From positions 448,364 through 512,363 of the forward strand of contig NZ_QCXQ01000001.1 of NCBI RefSeq assembly GCF_003124125.1: DNA of 64,000 nt. Direction: 5' to 3'. The position numbers and the translations under genes are program-made. Position 1 is the first letter of the stretch; every line of letters begins with the position of its first letter. This document shows positions 1 to 63,975 of the stretch, piece by piece. The DNA is from Levilactobacillus bambusae. Its GTDB lineage: Bacteria; Bacillota; Bacilli; Lactobacillales; Lactobacillaceae. The notes under the pieces were generated by a model, which had not been told where the DNA came from, did not search any database, and saw nothing but the letters and a program-made list of their open reading frames with translations.

Positions 1-2010
1 CCGTGCCTTTTGGGTAATTCGGGCAATATAATCCTGAACTTCGCTCGTTGCTTCCATCATTAAATCAGCTAACTCATCAATAATGATCACGATGTACGGC
101 ATTTTCAGGCCGGGTTCATCATTTGCATCAGCCCGGTCATTAAACTGTTCAATCTTCCGAACCCCAGCCGCTGCCAGCCTTTCGTACCGCTGATCCATTT
201 CCTTTGCCGCCCACTTAAGGGCCGCCGAAGCCGTTCTAGAATCCGAAATAACGGGCGCAATTAAATGAGGAATCCCATTGTACGGCGCCATTTCAACGGC
301 CTTCGGGTCAATAAGCAGGAGCTTGACCTGTTGGGGGGTGGCTTTGTATAAAATGGAAAGTAACAGTGAGTTAATGAAAACGGACTTTCCTGAGCCGGTT
401 GCACCAGCAATTAAGCCGTGCGGCATCTTGCGCAGATCCGTAATTTGCGGTTCCCCGTTTAAATCGACCCCAAGTGCAATCGTTAACGGTGACTCACTCT
501 CCTGGAACTTAGGGGTGTTGACAACCTCAGACAGCATAACTGGCCGGGCCTTCGGATTAGGTATTTCAATTCCCACCGTTGATTTTCCAGGAATCGGGGC
601 TTCAATCCGGATGTCCTTCGCAGCCAACGCCAACTTTAAGTCGTCCATCAAATTCGTAATCTTATTGACCTTAACACCAAGCGCTAAATGAATTTGAAAC
701 TGGGTTACCGTTGGCCCAATCGTCCAGTCCGACACCTCGGCCTTAACGTTAAAGGCACTTAAGGTCTGATCTAAGATGTCCACTTGGTGTTCAATCCAAT
801 CATCCATTTGGTCATCATCTTGGGTTACGGGAGGGGTCAATAAATCAATGCCCGGAAATTCATATCCGTGACCGTCTTCCCGCAGGGCCGGTTGGGGCTG
901 TTCAACAATATCAGGCTGATCCGACTCACGATTAAATAATGCCAAATCACGTTGGTCGTTTTCCTCATCAGACATAATATCGCCTAACCCATGACCTAAG
1001 CCCCGTGGTTTAACCGACTTAGCCGCATGAATTCGGGCTTTAGGCTGCTTAGATGCAGATGATGACTCTGGTTTTGTGGTCGGTTCATTTGTTTCGACCG
1101 TTTCAGATTTCTGACCTAATATCATCGATTCAGAAACGTCTAAGTCACCGGATAAAGTTGTCGTAGAATCGGACTGTTCACCCTCCCCTATTATCGGAGT
1201 TGCCGCTGCAATTTCACTTTCCTCCGTTGCATAGGCCACACTCTGGCTCTCCACGATTGGTTCGTCAACCACGGTTTGGTCCGACGAAACGTCACTAACT
1301 GACTCTTCCGTCTCTTCTTCACATTCCACCGGTTGGGTTTGATCATCAGTGGGACTGACGATCTCATTAGATAGGGACTCGCTAGTGGTCCCTGTGGCCT
1401 CCTTAGGCGTCTGTGCTGCTAAACTAGTTGCCAACCGTGTCACTTCATCTTCATCCGGCAAAATAAGTTCTGCTTGCTGGTTAAGTGGAGTGGCATCTAG
1501 TTCCAAGGTAGTCGGTTGCTCATTAGAGGCTACTGGTGTTCCTGTTTCTGATTGTTCATCGACCGTAGGAGCAAACGTTAAAGTTGACTGCGGCTGCTCT
1601 GAAATCACGGTATTGAAGTCAAAAAGCAGGACCTGGTCATCTGGCTTATGTAAATGCCGAACAAGTGACTGATAGCCAATCTCTGGTCGTTTAATCCGGG
1701 GTTTCGTGACTAACTGGGCTGGAATTTTAGTTGGGGTAAACGGCCGGGTGTAGTTTGCTGCATCTTCCGTTAACTCACCCCGGGTTTTTGCTGTGGTTCC
1801 CGACGTTTTAGTCTGGTCTGCCACTTTCGGTGTTAATTGAGCCCGTTTATTGACCGAAGTCGGGTTAGTGGCGGGTGTCTTCTTCACGGATCCTTCTTCA
1901 CGTTTAAAGGGTGACGTGCTTCGTTCCGATTCATTCGGTGTCCGACGTTGTTTTGGTTCCGTTCTGCCCGCAAATTTGCGATAAAAAGCAGGGCCATCAT
2001 AATGATTCAT
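1..2010 (-). CDS. sftA: SftA-type FtsK/SpoIIIE DNA translocase, partial at left edge
   Basis: ATP-driven double-stranded DNA pump of the FtsK/HerA superfamily, expected to clear chromosomal DNA from the closing septum. The frame runs from an ATG at 2008-2010 (preceded by GAAAGGA) off the left edge, so 670 residues are visible and the C-terminus, including any gamma domain, is missing. Walker A GATGSGKSVF lies near residue 537 and Walker B VIIIDELADL near residue 640; the FtsK alpha/beta part starts near residue 400. No membrane segments are visible. Instead the first 330 residues or so are rich in Ser, Thr, Glu and Gln, which favours the soluble SftA (YtpT) type over membrane-bound FtsK. ytpR lies directly upstream, as it does next to ytpT in Bacillus. 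Confidence 0.88.
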   Translation of the reverse strand, partial: MNHYDGPAFYRKFAGRTEPKQRRTPNESERSTSPFKREEGSVKKTPATNPTSVNKRAQLTPKVADQTKTSGTTAKTRGELTEDAANYTRPFTPTKIPAQLVTKPRIKRPEIGYQSLVRHLHKPDDQVLLFDFNTVISEQPQSTLTFAPTVDEQSETGTPVASNEQPTTLELDATPLNQQAELILPDEDEVTRLATSLAAQTPKEATGTTSESLSNEIVSPTDDQTQPVECEEETEESVSDVSSDQTVVDEPIVESQSVAYATEESEIAAATPIIGEGEQSDSTTTLSGDLDVSESMILGQKSETVETNEPTTKPESSSASKQPKARIHAAKSVKPRGLGHGLGDIMSDEENDQRDLALFNRESDQPDIVEQPQPALREDGHGYEFPGIDLLTPPVTQDDDQMDDWIEHQVDILDQTLSAFNVKAEVSDWTIGPTVTQFQIHLALGVKVNKITNLMDDLKLALAAKDIRIEAPIPGKSTVGIEIPNPKARPVMLSEVVNTPKFQESESPLTIALGVDLNGEPQITDLRKMPHGLIAGATGSGKSVFINSLLLSILYKATPQQVKLLLIDPKAVEMAPYNGIPHLIAPVISDSRTASAALKWAAKEMDQRYERLAAAGVRKIEQFNDRADANDEPGLKMPYIVIIIDELADLMMEATSEVQDYIARITQKAR

Positions 2011-2110
2011 TCGGATCCGATTCCTTTCAAAATACAATTCAATTCACAATAGGTAAAAGGCACAAAAGAAGCCAGGAACATTAGATGTGCCCGGCCAGTT
2101 CAGATCTTAT

Positions 2111-2752
2111 TTAGGATTCGAACAAACTTTCTGCTCGTTCAAAGTCAAACGCTTCGCCAACGGGTTGATAATCATCTGGTAAAATTAAAGCTCCAGGCCG
2201 TTGTGGTGCGTTTTTAATCTGCAATTCTCTGCCTGAACAAATCATACCATTACTTTCAACCCCACGCAATTCACCCGGCCAAATAATCTCGCCGTTTGGC
2301 ATCATTGCTCCTGGCACGGCAACCACGACTTTAATATCCGCTTTCATGTTAGGCGAACCACTGACAATTTGCAGGGTTTTTCCCCCACCAATTTCAGTTT
2401 CGGTTACCAACAGGTGGTCAGATTTTGGGTGGGCAACGGCTGATTTAACCACCCCTACGATAAACTTAGATTGCATGTCAGCCACTAGCTCACCATCAAA
2501 CCCGGCCTGCACTAACGCCGCATTCAACGCCGCTACTTCGTCAGTCGGGAGAATTAACTGTCCGTTTCCCGTAAGCTTTGGTAAAATTTTTGAAACATTA
2601 AAAAAATTATAACCAGTCGTTTGATTGGTTTTAACATCGTAAATCCGGACAATATCCTGCTGGCGAACGCTCGCTTGCTCTTCAGCGTCGGGACCAACAA
2701 TGGTAATTAAGGTATCCCCTAATTCACCCGGATTATAACTGGTAATTAACAT
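2111..2752 (-). CDS. ytpR: YtpR-like tRNA-binding-domain protein
   Basis: 213-residue protein with an N-terminal DUF4479-like part and a C-terminal OB-fold tRNA-binding domain (about residues 90-195) of the type found at the N-terminus of bacterial PheT. Visible landmarks are VGVVKSAVAHPKSDHL followed by LQIVSGSPNM and GVESNGMICSGREL, the usual signature of this domain. Stand-alone YtpR proteins are widespread in Firmicutes and of uncertain role. It lies 100 bases upstream of sftA in the same direction, the arrangement known from Bacillus (ytpR, ytpT). The ATG start at 2750-2752 follows an AGGAAGGG-type ribosome binding site. Family assignment is firm, function is not. Confidence 0.85.
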   Translation of the reverse strand: MLITSYNPGELGDTLITIVGPDAEEQASVRQQDIVRIYDVKTNQTTGYNFFNVSKILPKLTGNGQLILPTDEVAALNAALVQAGFDGELVADMQSKFIVGVVKSAVAHPKSDHLLVTETEIGGGKTLQIVSGSPNMKADIKVVVAVPGAMMPNGEIIWPGELRGVESNGMICSGRELQIKNAPQRPGALILPDDYQPVGEAFDFERAESLFES

Positions 2753-37059: not shown

Positions 37060-37449
37060 ATGATGACCCTTCAAATAACCGAATTTGCTCAGGAGAAAAT
37101 TCTCGCACGAATGGGAATGGATCGGTCAAACCAATTGATCTTGGATTTAGACGATGGCGTTGGCCCCTACTCGGAGTTTGCAACCTGTTCTTTGGAGACA
37201 AACTATCAACTTCTGATAACAGAGCATGTCGATTCAACCATTTATAATCAGGTTCTTCAATCTCCGTTAGGTCCCGTGTCCGTCAAGGGGTACGCGCATA
37301 GTTTCTTCTCTGAGGACCCTAAAATTAGTGTCTCTTCCGACTATAACCTTCAGCTAAGCGACCGATCTGGACTTTTGGACTCTAACGTTAGTCTCATTTA
37401 CCATCCCCAACCATCGCCTGTTCACATCGAAAAGACAGGCGGCTGTTAG
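37060..37449 (+). CDS. IscA/HesB-like iron-sulfur assembly core-domain protein
   Basis: 129 residues from the ATG at 37060, nine bases after AAGGAG. The N-terminal FAQEKILARM, the LDLDDGVGPYSEF stretch and the overall strand pattern match the atypical IscA-like (Fe-S biosynthesis core domain) proteins of lactobacilli. The three conserved cysteines of true IscA are not kept: there is a Cys near residue 46 and a CxxC-less C-terminal GGC. It probably forms an operon with the OhrR-like gene. Role in Fe-S handling is inferred. Confidence 0.68.
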   Translation: MMTLQITEFAQEKILARMGMDRSNQLILDLDDGVGPYSEFATCSLETNYQLLITEHVDSTIYNQVLQSPLGPVSVKGYAHSFFSEDPKISVSSDYNLQLSDRSGLLDSNVSLIYHPQPSPVHIEKTGGC

Positions 37450-37455
37450 CCAACT

Positions 37456-38154
37456 TTAAAGTAGGGTGATGACCATCATGAGCATGGCAATAAAGTTGTT
37501 AAAGGCATGCATATAAATGGTACTCGTAATGGTTTCCGTTCGACGGTAAACGTAAGCAAAAATCCCGCCCATAACGGCATATAGTAAGAAGCTGGCAATG
37601 GTTGTACTACTATGAGCAAGTGAAAACAGAATTCCACTCGTGATGATCGGCGTCCAAAACTGCGAAGAGCCAAATAAGCCATCCATCAGGAACCCCCGGA
37701 AGATCAATTCCTCCACCACCGGTGAGAAAACAACCGAACTAACGGCCATGGCACCGAGGATAAAATGATTAGAACTCATTAGCTTTAAAATGGCTTCGTT
37801 ATTTGCCGTTTGGGTCTGACCAAACACCAGGACGTTAATGAAGTTTAAGAGAAACTCCGTTAGGTAAAAAACAACGAGGGCCTTCCCCATTAGCTTCCAA
37901 GTCGCCGGGGATAACCGAGACGTTTTTTCTGGGTGAACCCAGTGATACACTTTTTCGGCTAACCAGACGAGGGCGGCAAATAGCCCAAAGTATAGGCCAA
38001 CCCATAATAAACTTTGGGTCGGATCCGGTTGAAGCTTACGAATTAAAGCCAACGGTAGCTGAACCAGTTCGATTAAAATAATCATACCCAATAAAACGAA
38101 CAGCCGACCGACAAACTGTTTCGTTGAGGGTCGTTTTGAATGAAATGTTTGCAT
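37456..38154 (-). CDS. CPBP-family intramembrane metalloprotease
   Basis: 232 residues, six to seven membrane segments. Conserved motifs of the CPBP (Abi) family are EELIFRGFL (near residue 147), SLAHSS (near 183) and HAFNNF (near 217), the proposed zinc and catalytic residues. Family members include eukaryotic Rce1 and bacteriocin self-immunity proteins; there is no bacteriocin gene here. Convergent with the IscA-like gene, six bases apart. Confidence 0.88.
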   Translation of the reverse strand: MQTFHSKRPSTKQFVGRLFVLLGMIILIELVQLPLALIRKLQPDPTQSLLWVGLYFGLFAALVWLAEKVYHWVHPEKTSRLSPATWKLMGKALVVFYLTEFLLNFINVLVFGQTQTANNEAILKLMSSNHFILGAMAVSSVVFSPVVEELIFRGFLMDGLFGSSQFWTPIITSGILFSLAHSSTTIASFLLYAVMGGIFAYVYRRTETITSTIYMHAFNNFIAMLMMVITLL

Positions 38155-38195
38155 GGTTAACCTCCATAATTCACTAATAAAATTTAAAAATCATG

Positions 38196-38224
38196 ATGAC
38201 AATTGCGAACGGTTGCGTTACCAT
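38196..38224 (+). promoter_or_regulatory. Candidate promoter of the small RNA
   Basis: ATGACA (5 of 6 to the -35 consensus), 17 bp, TACCAT (4 of 6 to the -10). Transcription would start near 38231, at the first hairpin. Confidence 0.4.
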
Positions 38225-38227
38225 ATG

Positions 38228-38373
38228 GTTGCGGGTATTACATTTATGTCATACCCCATCAACAGATAAATTTCATTTTACTCCCCCAAAGTAAATGAAA
38301 TTTTCGTAACACAACCCCCAATTGTGTTACAACCTTACTCTTTGGCCATTACGTTTACCGTGATGGCTTTTTT
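38228..38373 (+). ncRNA. Candidate small RNA with twin CCCCCAA hairpin loops
   Basis: Four hairpins in series. H1 38228-38263 has GGGTAT/ATACCC arms. H2 38268-38303 is a 14-bp stem with one bulge and loop CCCCCAA. H3 38306-38330 is a perfect 9-bp stem with the same loop CCCCCAA. H4 38345-38367 is a 9-bp stem followed by TTTTTT, a good plus-strand terminator. Both flanking genes are on the minus strand, so the terminator serves no protein gene. C-rich loops of this kind in staphylococcal small RNAs pair with G-rich ribosome binding sites. No homologue known to me. Confidence 0.5.
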
Positions 38374-38377
38374 AGTC

Positions 38378-38569
38378 TCATTTTTGGTGCCGATTACCCA
38401 CCAACAGTAAAAACAAGAACGTGGCCGCAATCGTGGCCGCTACCCACCCCACAACCCAAATAATAATTTCTACAATAAAACTAAAGTGAATGGCACTCGT
38501 TAACCAAAATAGTCCAATAATAATAAGTGCCGGAACAACCGCGATAATTAAGTACGATAACGCCCTCAT
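38378..38569 (-). CDS. Small two-helix membrane protein
   Basis: 63 residues from the ATG at 38567-38569, six bases after AAGGAGG. Two hydrophobic helices (about 6-26 and 32-56) and a short basic tail. No family recognised. Upstream of it is the divergent gene at 38658. Confidence 0.65.
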   Translation of the reverse strand: MRALSYLIIAVVPALIIIGLFWLTSAIHFSFIVEIIIWVVGWVAATIAATFLFLLLVGNRHQK

Positions 38570-38657
38570 GACATTCCTCCTTGTAAGCATTCCACGTGGG
38601 TTTTAAATTTAGCAGCAGTATAATACGGGGTAAAGCAACAGAAAGGATGTCCTCATC

Positions 38658-39023
38658 ATGAATCAAGAAGCTGTCTTACCCTTCCAACAACTTTATCAAG
38701 CAACAACTGAAAGTCTTCTAATGGCGCCCCTATCCGATAAGGAGGCTGGTGATATTTTAACGCAGTTGGATCATCTTCCGGACCAAGATGACTCCCTTGC
38801 AAAAATTTACCGCATTTTAATTATGGACGAATTAGACTTTCGGCGGCGCCAATTTGTTTTTGTGGGGAATATCAACCATGACGGAACCTTCTTAGATTAT
38901 CCCCTTGATATGGCACATTGGACTAAACTGTCGCCGACTGATCAACAAGGCTATTTAGACACGGGTATGATGTTTGACGCCCATCCCGTATCGCTTTCTG
39001 AAGCCCAACGGTTAATTGAATAA
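38658..39023 (+). CDS. Soluble protein of unknown function
   Basis: 121 residues, ATG after GAAAGGATG. N-terminal half helical and acidic (LSDKEAGDILTQLDHLPDQ); the second half has FVFVGNINHDGTFLDYP and ends in a helix. No motif known to me. It has its own terminator and probably its own promoter. Confidence 0.65.
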   Translation: MNQEAVLPFQQLYQATTESLLMAPLSDKEAGDILTQLDHLPDQDDSLAKIYRILIMDELDFRRRQFVFVGNINHDGTFLDYPLDMAHWTKLSPTDQQGYLDTGMMFDAHPVSLSEAQRLIE

Positions 39024-53531: not shown

Positions 53532-53765
53532 AAAAAAAGCCTCCAGAACGACAGTTGTCATTCTGCAGGACGAGTTAACCGCGGTACCACCTACAATTTC
53601 CCATAACGGGACGCTTAAAGGGCCGGTAACGAGGCTAAACGTCTTGACCTAATTTATTCAGTCAAAAAACTCGGAGATGAGTTCGGAAGTGATGAGGCCG
53701 AGTTCGCATCCCCACTCGGTTTCTGATCCATCATAACTTCCTACTATTTCTCGTCATCGTTTCAT
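53532..53765 (-). ncRNA. T-box riboswitch leader of leuS
   Basis: Reading leftwards: Stem I with GGAAGT/ACTTCC helix and AGTA/GAA loop-E pair, specifier CTC (Leu) at 53679-53681 right after GAA; T-box AGGTGGTACCGCGGT (53578-53592); terminator CAGAATGACA/TGTCGTTCTG (53543-53566) and a T-run. Uncharged tRNA-Leu should promote readthrough into leuS. The rest of the gap 53502-53873 holds the PAP2 gene's TATAAT box at 53829-53834. Confidence 0.93.
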
Positions 53766-53873
53766 TTTGAATGGTTTTATCTTATCAGAGGCACACCCTA
53801 AAAGCAAGGCTCCTCCAAAGATTTGCGCTATAATTAGTATCATCAACTTCAAATATTACTAGGAGGTTTCGCC

Positions 53874-56586: not shown

Positions 56587-57783
56587 TTAAAGCTCGTCCG
56601 CAAATGCGGCTTTTAAAGCATCCACTTTATCTAAATGTTCCCACGGTAAATCAATGTCGGTCCGACCAAAGTGACCGTAAGCAGCCGTTTGTTTATAAAT
56701 TGGTCGTTTCAAATCAAGCATTTCAATGATTCCGGCTGGGCGAAGGTCAAACAGGTTTCGAATCACTTCAACTAATTTTTGTTCAGAGACCTTATTCGTT
56801 CCAAACGTATTTACTGAAACGGAAACCGGTTCTGCCACCCCGATTGCATAAGCAATTTGAACCTCAGCCTGGCTAGCTAACCCGGCAGCCACCACATTCT
56901 TTGCAATGTAGCGGGCCGCATAACTAGCACTTCGGTCAACTTTCGTTGCATCCTTACCAGAAAATGCACCCCCACCATGGTGGGCAAATCCGCCGTAGGT
57001 ATCGACAATAATTTTCCGACCCGTTAATCCAGCATCCCCTTGGGGACCACCAATAACAAATCGACCGGTTGGGTTAATTAAGTAGGTTGTCTTATCTGAT
57101 AAGAGGCCTGCCGGAATAACTGGCTTAATAACCTGTTCAATAATATCCTTTCGAATTTGATCCAACGTTACGTCTGGATCATGCTGTGTACTGAGGACAA
57201 CGGTATCAACCCCCATTGGCTTACCATCGTCATCATATTCAACGGTAACTTCGGCCTTAGCATCGGGACGCAAGTATGGAATCGAACCGTCCTTCCGAAG
57301 GGTAGCAATCCGTTTCATCAACTTATGGGATAACATGATCGGTAATGGCATATATTCAGGCGTTTCGTCAATGGCATACCCAAACATTAACCCTTGGTCA
57401 CCGGCTCCAATTTGATCTAACGGATCCGTATCGCCATCACGGGTTTCTAACGAATCATCAACCCCTTGGGCGATATCAGGCGATTGTTCATCAACTGCAA
57501 CTAAGACGGCACAGTTATCACCATCAAAACCGTATTGGCCGTCAGTATACCCGATTTCCTTGATCGTATCACGAACAATTCGTTGGATATCAACGTAAGC
57601 AGAAGTCGAAATTTCACCGAAAACGAGCACTAACCCCGTAGTTACGGATGTTTCACACGCTACCCGCGCATCAGGATCCTGAGTTAAAATAGCGTCGAGA
57701 ATGGCGTCACTGATTTGATCAGCAATCTTATCCGGATGTCCCTCTGAGACAGATTCGGACGTAAATAAATGTCTTTCTTGCAC
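56587..57783 (-). CDS. metK: S-adenosylmethionine synthetase
   Basis: 398 residues from a GTG at 57781-57783, eight bases after GGGGGA. Motifs [15 protein letters not shown] (near residue 9), [12 protein letters not shown] (near 126) and the P-loop-like [17 protein letters not shown] (near 272). It makes SAM from methionine and ATP. Translation is predicted to be shut off by SAM through the SMK box that contains its ribosome site. Confidence 0.97.
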
Positions 57784-57790
57784 GAGAATA

Positions 57791-57882
57791 TTCCCCCTAA
57801 AAATTAAACGAACGGAGTTGACCGATAATCTTCCGTTCCTCGGTTACAAGGCACCTCCATCTACATGGAGCCTATCGGGAAT
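57791..57882 (-). ncRNA. SMK-box (SAM-III) riboswitch of metK
   Basis: Reading leftwards: TTCCCGATAGGC, a CTCCAT/ATGGAG hairpin, GCCTTGTAACCG, a variable hairpin with GGAACGGA, and finally GGGGGAA, the metK ribosome site (57791-57797). The CTTGTAAC core and the TCCC element that sequesters the ribosome site are the family hallmarks. SAM binding blocks translation start. Confidence 0.9.
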
Positions 57883-58007
57883 TTTGACTTATAACTCTAA
57901 AATGATACCATATCTAGCCGATTTCGGCAAAGTAACTTCCCCCATTGACCTGACTAAAAAAAGCAACTAAAATGATGAGTTATAAGTCAAAGATTGGAGT
58001 TAATGAC

Positions 58008-62969: not shown

Positions 62970-63040
<71 letters not shown>

Positions 63041-63098
63041 ATAAACAATAAAAGGGTTTGCCAATCCAGTAACGAATTAGCAGACCCTTTTCTCAAAG

Positions 63099-63183
63099 TA
63101 CCGGAGGTGGGGTTCGAACCCACACGAGCTCAACACTCACTGGATTTTGAGTCCAGCGCGTCTGCCAATTCCGCCACTCCGGC
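63099..63183 (-). tRNA. tRNA-Leu (CAA)
   Basis: 85 bases with a long variable arm, acceptor GCCGGAG/CTCCGGT (G-U first pair), discriminator A, anticodon loop CTCAAAA on a CTGGA/TCCAG stem. Confidence 0.95.
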
Positions 63184-63224
63184 ATAACACTTATTAAATT
63201 GTGAATGTTAACTACCCATTCAAG

Positions 63225-63298
63225 GGCGGTAGATGGGAATCGAACCCACGCGTGCCGGAACCACAATCCGGTGTGTTAACCACTTCACCACTACCGCC
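63225..63298 (-). tRNA. tRNA-His (GTG)
   Basis: 74 bases including the G-1 opposite discriminator C, anticodon loop TTGTGGT. Confidence 0.95.
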
Positions 63299-63311
63299 AT
63301 AACATTACAAA

Positions 63312-63382
63312 CAGGGATAGTAGGAATTGAACCCACACCGACGGTTTTGGAGACCGTAGTTCTACCTTTAAACTATATCCCT
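63312..63382 (-). tRNA. tRNA-Trp (CCA)
   Basis: 71 bases, acceptor AGGGATA/TATCCCT, discriminator G, anticodon loop CTCCAAA. Confidence 0.95.
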
Positions 63383-63383
63383 A

Positions 63384-63469
63384 TGGTGGAGGGGAGTGGA
63401 TTCGAACCACCGAACCCGAAGGAGCGGATTTACAGTCCGCCGCGTTTAGCCAGACTTCGCTACCCCTCC
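63384..63469 (-). tRNA. tRNA-Tyr (GTA), CCA encoded
   Basis: Long variable arm, acceptor GGAGGGG/CCCCTCC, anticodon GTA. The 3' CCA is encoded (63384-63386), unlike in its neighbours. Confidence 0.95.
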
Positions 63470-63474
63470 ATAAA

Positions 63475-63547
63475 TGGCACGGGACGGAATCGAACCGCCG
63501 ACACACGGAGCTTCAATCCGTTGCTCTACCGACTGAGCTACCGAGCC
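63475..63547 (-). tRNA. tRNA-Phe (GAA)
   Basis: 73 bases, acceptor GGCTCGG/CCGTGCC, anticodon loop TTGAAGC. Confidence 0.95.
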
Positions 63548-63597
63548 ATTTCACCATGAAGTGAATGCTATGCTATTAAATTAAGATAACATAACCA

Positions 63598-63672
63598 CGG
63601 TCCGTACGAGACTCGAACTCGTGATCTCCTGCGTGACAGGCAGGCGTCCTAAACCAACTAGACCAACGGACC
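63598..63672 (-). tRNA. tRNA-Asp (GTC)
   Basis: 75 bases, acceptor GGTCCGT/ACGGACC, discriminator G, anticodon loop CTGTCAC. Confidence 0.95.
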
Positions 63673-63700
63673 AAATAATTTGGTGCTGTTATGTTATCAA

Positions 63701-63773
63701 TGGAGGATACAGGGCTCGAACCTGTGACCCTCTGCTTGTAAGGCAGATGCTCTCCCAACTGAGCTAATCCTCC
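63701..63773 (-). tRNA. tRNA-Val (TAC)
   Basis: 73 bases, acceptor GGAGGAT/ATCCTCC, anticodon loop CTTACAA. Confidence 0.95.
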
Positions 63774-63777
63774 AAAA

Positions 63778-63849
63778 TGACCCGTACGGGATTTGAACCC
63801 ATGTTACCGCCGTGAAAGGGCGGTGTCTTAACCACTTGACCAACGGGTC
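63778..63849 (-). tRNA. tRNA-Glu (TTC)
   Basis: 72 bases, acceptor GACCCGT/ACGGGTC, anticodon loop CTTTCAC. Confidence 0.95.
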
Positions 63850-63883
63850 ATATACAGACTAAGTATATAACTTTAATATACAA

Positions 63884-63975
63884 CGGAGAGTAAGGGATTC
63901 GAACCCTTGAAACAGGCTTTTACCCGTTTACACCATTTCCAGTGGTGCTCCTTCGGCCAGCTCGGACAACTCTCC
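63884..63975 (-). tRNA. tRNA-Ser (GGA)
   Basis: 92 bases with a long variable arm, acceptor GGAGAGT/ACTCTCC, discriminator G, anticodon loop CTGGAAA. Confidence 0.94.

Follow-up and report, generated by a model that had tools for sequence, protein, structure and literature searches.

In the available parts of the LhrC papers, LhrC is described in Listeria, and the known family there comprises LhrC1-5, Rli22 and Rli33-1 (Rfam RF00616). Probing and mutants of LhrC4 with lapB show that the loop lies on the Shine-Dalgarno (SD) sequence, that positions −2 to +7 are covered by the 5′ strand of stem A, and that three CU-rich sites are capable of binding (PMC4132741). Loop A of LhrC also pairs with the SD of lmo0484 (PMC5880928), and in staphylococcal RNAs of the RsaE/RNAIII type a UCCC-type loop contacts the SD (PMC4132741). 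We found no statement on LhrC relatives outside Listeria in the parts of the literature searched (PMC4132741, PMC8079631, PMC5880928 and PMC13350326), a term search of the available part of PMC13109727 gave no mention of LhrC, and a literature search combining LhrC with Lactobacillales returned no papers. Rfam also holds a model for Ref84 (Enterococcus sRNA 84, RF02846, cut-off 52 bits), for whose name a literature search returned unrelated papers only. The csRNAs of Streptococcus are multi-copy, anti-SD RNAs whose expression is driven by an OmpR-type regulator acting on a direct-repeat box. For L. casei, the accessible text of PMC8220740 gives 307 putative sRNAs, two of them resembling Enterococcus sRNA families, and a relative of the RNA studied here may already be among them.

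We analyzed a stretch of 64,000 nucleotides from Levilactobacillus bambusae (hereafter the window), in which a plus-strand small RNA candidate had been proposed in a 223-base gap between two minus-strand genes. The gap was confirmed at that length and with those neighbours (Table 1). The minimum free energy (MFE) fold of 38225-38375 on the plus strand consists of four hairpins (−45.1 kcal/mol, z −6.4, 0/200 shuffles equally good), in agreement with the three hairpins and the plus-strand terminator with a T run of the original prediction; the terminator is a hairpin followed by T's as described, with a stem of 10 pairs by our count instead of 9. The 5′ end of the predicted RNA was inferred from the position of the −10 element alone, and a small ORF at 38225 was discarded, its ATG preceding this start site. 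Elsewhere on the minus strand of the window lie a T-box leader (53563-53766) and a cluster of ten tRNA genes (62970-63975).

Table 1. Features of the predicted small RNA and its neighbourhood (window coordinates)
Feature	Position	Strand	Remarks
Rce1/CPBP-type membrane protease gene, divergent neighbour	37456-38154	−	PF02517; kept beside the RNA
Intergenic gap	38155-38377		223 bases; minus-strand ORFs on both sides
Weak −35-like ATGACA	38196-38201	+	Conservation not seen by eye
−10 element TACCAT	38219-38224	+	Aligned genus loci
Predicted LhrC-like small RNA	38231-38374	+	About 144 nt; covariance-model core match 38256-38374; element in 36/36 genus genomes
Hairpin 1 (5′ hairpin)	38233-38256	+	MFE fold, genus alignment
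Hairpin 2	38265-38305	+	Counterpart of LhrC stem-loop A; loop CCCCCAA at 38283-38289
Core TTTCATTTTACTCCCCCAA	38271-38289	+	Antisense of SD GGGGGAG, spacer and AUG AAA; conserved across genera
Hairpin 3 (middle hairpin)	38306-38330	+	Second CCCCCAA loop at 38315-38321
Single-stranded linker with CUUACUCUUU	38331-38343	+	Counterpart of the LhrC single-stranded CU-rich stretch
Intrinsic terminator hairpin and T run	38344-38374	+	Terminator-like site 38344-38368, then T's

The minus strand of the same stretch folds well too (z −4.7, 0/200 shuffles as good), which, together with the minus orientation of both flanking ORFs, would suit a cis-acting leader or attenuator on a minus-strand transcript running into the protease gene. 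We consider such a leader highly improbable, because the terminator with its T run and the conserved −10 element lie on the plus strand, and because in an alignment of 39 copies G-U cells outnumber A-C cells (99 vs 28), as would be expected of a plus-strand RNA. The gene neighbourhood also argues against it. Of the 29 other genus loci, 28 have a protease homologue next to the RNA, the exception being a contig that ends too early (L006), and the homologue also stands beside the RNA in three loci of genus g38 (L076-L078); among the 40 loci from outside the genus (L076-L115, most of them with 2 kb on each side), however, it is present at only these three.

DNA searches found the element in all 36 Levilactobacillus genomes, with 81-86% identity in the 35 others. 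There is one full place in 35 of the 36 and two in an incomplete bin (G008), while G028 carries an additional 25-base fragment. A scan for an exact 24-base piece of the core returned 33 stretches from named genomes, 31 of them Levilactobacillus (two Candidatus) and two Lactobacillus sp. Thirty of the 36 genus genomes were fetched as loci, the remaining six being used later and in part only, and across these 30 aligned loci, which represent 16 distinct sequences (alignment A2), the −10 element, core, linker and terminator are almost invariant. The window genome also holds a second, more diverged copy (C10:702183-702307, minus strand, 54.8 bits; positions 2001-2125, minus strand, of locus L206). 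Copies are multiple in several genera and tandem in some, as might be expected of a mobile or repeat DNA element devoid of RNA function; the single full place in nearly every genus genome, the fixed synteny and the compensatory changes in the stems make that explanation negligible in our view.

The ATGACA-17-TACCAT arrangement proposed as promoter of the window copy is present and its −10 element is kept in the genus (TACTAT in 27 of the 30 aligned loci, TACCAT in two, the window and L009, and TATTAT in one), whereas no conserved −35 element was seen by eye in the same loci. Similar sites number two in 37400-38800 against 3.1 expected from shuffles, so the match by itself is no better than chance.

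The claim that different stems carry the same loop holds inside the window and across relatives. The stem of hairpin 3 reads GTAACACAA/TTGTGTTAC in the window and ACAACATAA/TTATGTTGT in most relatives, so that three pairs have changed on both sides and the C-run between them has stayed constant. Of the 30 aligned genus rows, 29 contain CCCCCAA twice and L012 contains it once, the loop of its hairpin 3 being CCCTCAA. In the alignment of 39 copies, four of the five loop positions of hairpin 2 are C in 39, 39, 39 and 38 copies, and the loop of hairpin 3 contains CCC in 32 of the 39 Lactobacillaceae copies. Outside this family hairpin 3 is optional (present in 8 of 32 copies), and the second CCCCCAA hairpin is therefore not the defining part of the RNA, contrary to the emphasis that the original prediction had laid on the doubled loop. 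Variation is lowest in hairpin 2, over its loop and 5′ arm, the two arms differing slightly in mean conservation (0.85 for the 5′ arm vs 0.80 for the 3′ arm). Hairpin 1 is replaced in relatives by two 5′ hairpins, the first of which shows paired changes.

Within Lactobacillaceae, BLAST detected the element in 93 of 397 genomes, covariance model R1 in 119 and a core pattern in 166, the latter spanning 26 of 40 genera with 8 hits for the reversed-pattern control. The core conserved across genera is UUUUCAUUUUACUCCYCCAAAGU; as read from family copies it is CUUUUUCAUUUUACUCCUCCAAAGU, with a CCCCC variant in the Levilactobacillus and g38 copies. Family genomes listed with a match have one to six matches each, and in other genera several copies per genome may occur, some in tandem. 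In two genomes of another family, tandem copies follow each other with an exact period of 195 bases, three in L212 (2001-2474, plus strand) and four in L213 (2001-2669, minus strand). The stems covary across Lactobacillaceae genomes while the C-rich loop of hairpin 2 is kept: over 39 copies (alignment A4, drawn from 37 selected sources with E ≤ 1e-6 as the limit), 94.0% of cells pair, double changes affect 34 of 36 pairs, and covariation is 0.663 against 0.177 when shuffled and at most 0.10 with slid partners, figures that are biased toward the model since the alignment was fitted to its own structure. L111, included in alignment A3 and absent from A4, lacks the core and was therefore read as a false match. 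The hairpins of the window very probably belong to a genuine regulatory sRNA that is strongly conserved.

In other genera, a direct repeat KTCAYA-N5-KTCAYA lies at most 130 bases before the core in 34 of 50 copies, against 13 of 6000 control segments, the 50 being those found by the core pattern in L076-L115, which misses copies such as L077. The repeat was found within 200 bases of none of the 30 window-type copies. Among the g38 copies it is exact in L076 and L078 and recognizable by eye in L077, and the second copy of the window genome (L206), which has ACUCCUCCUCCCC in hairpin 2, is preceded by a sequence that looks box-like by eye, TTCATACTTTCGTCATA. The main copy of Levilactobacillus has thus likely lost the box. 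A strict form of the pattern, TCACANNTTSTTCACA, gave 30 sites over 30 genomes, of which 19 were positive and the window genome (G000) negative, with a single site for the reversed control. As read, 19 of these sites precede a core, six precede diverged look-alikes and five neither; among the box-linked look-alikes the model score is firm for L158 only and marginal for L157. In three Levilactobacillus loci (L156, L169 and L170), a TTCACA-type box with a diverged look-alike was seen at about 1300-1700; a gene of the metallophosphatase type (PF00149 in L170) follows at a distance of about 0.4-0.6 kb. The box of the Streptococcus csRNAs differs from the KTCAYA type. Control by PhoP was rejected, as the upstream regions of pstS contain an exact TTTACA-N5-TTTACA in 14 of 30 cases and an exact TTCACA-N5-TTCACA in none, unlike the RNA copies of the same genomes, which carry TTCACA-type boxes. 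The motif published for CroR (TTTATTAA; PMC9426447) differs from the KTCAYA box, which makes control by CroR less likely.

At gathering thresholds no Rfam family matches this RNA in the window, and the LhrC model (cut-off 110 bits) matches neither the window nor 20 other Lactobacillaceae loci; within 38100-38450, LhrC and Ref84 give no match even at E ≤ 1. With Rfam silent in the window, the link to LhrC depends on our own models, R2 and R3. Model R2, for which Lactobacillaceae copies alone were used, found matches in 111 of 295 genomes from across the order, which represent 29 of 74 genera and seven families (f1, f2, f3, f5, f7, f8 and f9). Twenty R2 places were fetched, 19 of them outside Lactobacillaceae, and a Rfam scan recognized LhrC above its cut-off at three (L207, L208 and L209, genus g47) and no Rfam RNA at the other 17. 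On the three LhrC loci the best copies score 49-51 bits with R2 and the others 30-46. Model R3, made of 32 copies from outside Lactobacillaceae that include those of L207-L209, finds 38256-38374 in the 64-kb window with 72 bits (E 3.8e-11; next match 13.1 bits, E 4.9), with the provisos that covariance-model E-values are rough and that C-rich, AU-rich composition could raise scores. It aligns stem-loop A, the single-stranded stretch and the terminator in order, leaving hairpin 3 as an insertion. At the level of profiles, homology with LhrC is therefore found in both directions. A sub-threshold Rfam scan of ten further loci placed Ref84 on the RNA at seven (best E 0.011), all of them outside Lactobacillaceae and none at the scan's two Lactobacillaceae loci, and LhrC at two, with E-values of 1.9 and 4 that are at chance level and like those of unrelated families.

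Alternatively, the Lactobacillales RNAs could form a family of their own that arrived at the LhrC design by convergence, because any anti-SD RNA has C-rich loops and U-rich arms. Besides the failure of both Rfam models to score the window copy, this explanation could appeal to a linker and a terminator loop that differ from those of LhrC, and to Listeria-type LhrC promoters, in which the KTCAYA box is not clear either by eye or by TTCACA score. We nevertheless find convergence unlikely, given that the models match both ways between the LhrC-bearing loci and the window, that R3 matches only 8 of 299 Bacilli genomes, every one from this order, and that intermediate copies in other families keep the same order of parts.

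Like LhrC, the window RNA has a stem-loop A with a UUUUCAUU arm and a CU-rich loop, a single-stranded CU-rich stretch and a terminator, occurs in more than one copy, and is antisense to the SD and start codon. It differs by an additional hairpin in the middle, which carries a second C-rich loop, by its 5′ hairpin or hairpins, and by a predicted length of about 144 nt, counted from an inferred 5′ end, against 105-121 nt for LhrC (PMC8079631). Moreover, LhrC has three UCCC sites (loop A, single-stranded stretch and terminator loop), whereas the window RNA has UCCC in loop A only, its linker being ACUCUUU, its terminator loop lacking a C run and its hairpin 3 loop being preceded by A. LhrC1-5 bind Hfq; an Hfq gene, present in the LhrC-bearing genome G567, was absent from all six Lactobacillaceae genomes in which it was sought, namely the window genome and five others. 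LhrC is induced by envelope stress through LisR; the window-type copies lack the KTCAYA box carried by many copies of other genera. As it falls below the Rfam cut-off, lacks the three UCCC sites and comes from a genome without an Hfq gene, we do not assign this RNA to LhrC proper. The cut-off of Ref84 is not reached either, and the likeness to RsaE/RNAIII-type RNAs lies in the C-rich loop, no Rfam family matching the window RNA. We consider it likely that the locus encodes a plus-strand trans-acting sRNA of about 144 nt, which belongs to the Lactobacillaceae branch of an LhrC-like family found throughout the order and probably works as LhrC does, most likely by blocking translation at the SD and start codon.

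Hairpin 2, with its 5′ arm and its loop, shows the geometry in which LhrC4 pairs with lapB (PMC4132741). By analogy, the C-rich loop, mainly that of hairpin 2 but also that of hairpin 3 and perhaps the linker, would first touch a G-rich SD; hairpin 2 would then open, and pairing of its 5′ arm over the spacer and AUG would block initiation. The arm and loop shared with LhrC4, a second C-rich loop and a CU-containing linker make translational repression the best inference, and the window RNA is predicted to be transcribed, to pair with real targets and to repress them. Identical repeated loops could instead serve as a decoy of the CsrA/Rsm style that captures a protein rather than an mRNA, an idea raised by the LhrC authors themselves (PMC4132741); conservation, however, extends into the 5′ arm of hairpin 2, antisense to the SD and AUG, and a decoy role is accordingly very unlikely. 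The RNA is best read as a candidate trans-acting translational regulator. This much of the original prediction stands, with its conserved and structured plus-strand RNA, C-rich loops and covarying stems, apart from the second loop hairpin, which is missing from most copies outside Lactobacillaceae.

Target prediction on ribosome binding sites produced leads only. The suggested targets metK and argR come 117th and 124th among 392 genes for pairing with stem A in a sample of the window genome called with our own simple ORF caller. GGGGG occurs at −25 to −1 in 56 of these 392 genes, which indicates that the loop complement is common and that metK and argR are not special. The metK gene of the window is itself preceded by a SAM-III (SMK) riboswitch (57781-57899, minus strand). 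Exported proteins with MKK-type starts were considered as a class, MK[KR] starts being found in 5/27 exported vs 10/266 soluble proteins in the G000 sample and in 3/15 vs 3/216 in G342, according to crude classes of our own making. This class was rejected, its pairing energies being not significantly better than those of soluble proteins (p 0.45 for the window stem A in G000; p 0.06 in G000 and 0.30 in G342 for the family consensus), and shuffled arms were equally low in 6/30 and 4/30. Neither was oppA retained as a conserved target: the oppA-type starts of the genus are mediocre for the window stem A, and among 30 oppA-type matches only L275, L284 and L276, none from the genus, fall in the top 1% of the G000 background. 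A search of the 36 genus genomes for the complement of the core with up to two mismatches gave 105 hits, of which 37 were exact and were attributed to the RNA itself; the remaining 68 compare with 41 for a reversed control, although a pattern resembling a ribosome binding site is expected to be enriched anyway. Among the 20 of these 68 that were read, the start of an Ltp-type lipoprotein gene (PF07553; L348, about 596-617, G019) matches the core complement at 21 of 22 bases by eye, and that of an amino-acid permease matches it in five genomes (PF00324 for L334, the others by likeness). These lipoprotein and permease starts are candidate targets, to be taken as leads only.

We tentatively propose that LhrC, Ref84 and the lactobacillus RNAs may represent one ancestral multi-copy regulon of the order that in many lineages answers to a single dedicated regulator of the OmpR type, acting through KTCAYA-N5-KTCAYA, with a conserved core that is the antisense of an idealized translation start (SD, spacer and AUG AAA); the main copy of Levilactobacillus would have been freed from this regulator while keeping a second hairpin in which the contact loop is duplicated. 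Through the relationship of the window RNA to LhrC, a regulator known from work on Listeria seems to have a long history and a wide distribution among lactic acid bacteria. If these RNAs are indeed relatives of LhrC, a regulator investigated in connection with Listeria infection would be a long-standing tool of lactic acid bacteria, among them species that have no Hfq. It would then be possible to curate a single RNA family for the whole order in place of the present separate Rfam models, and the mechanism would be testable in harmless strains.
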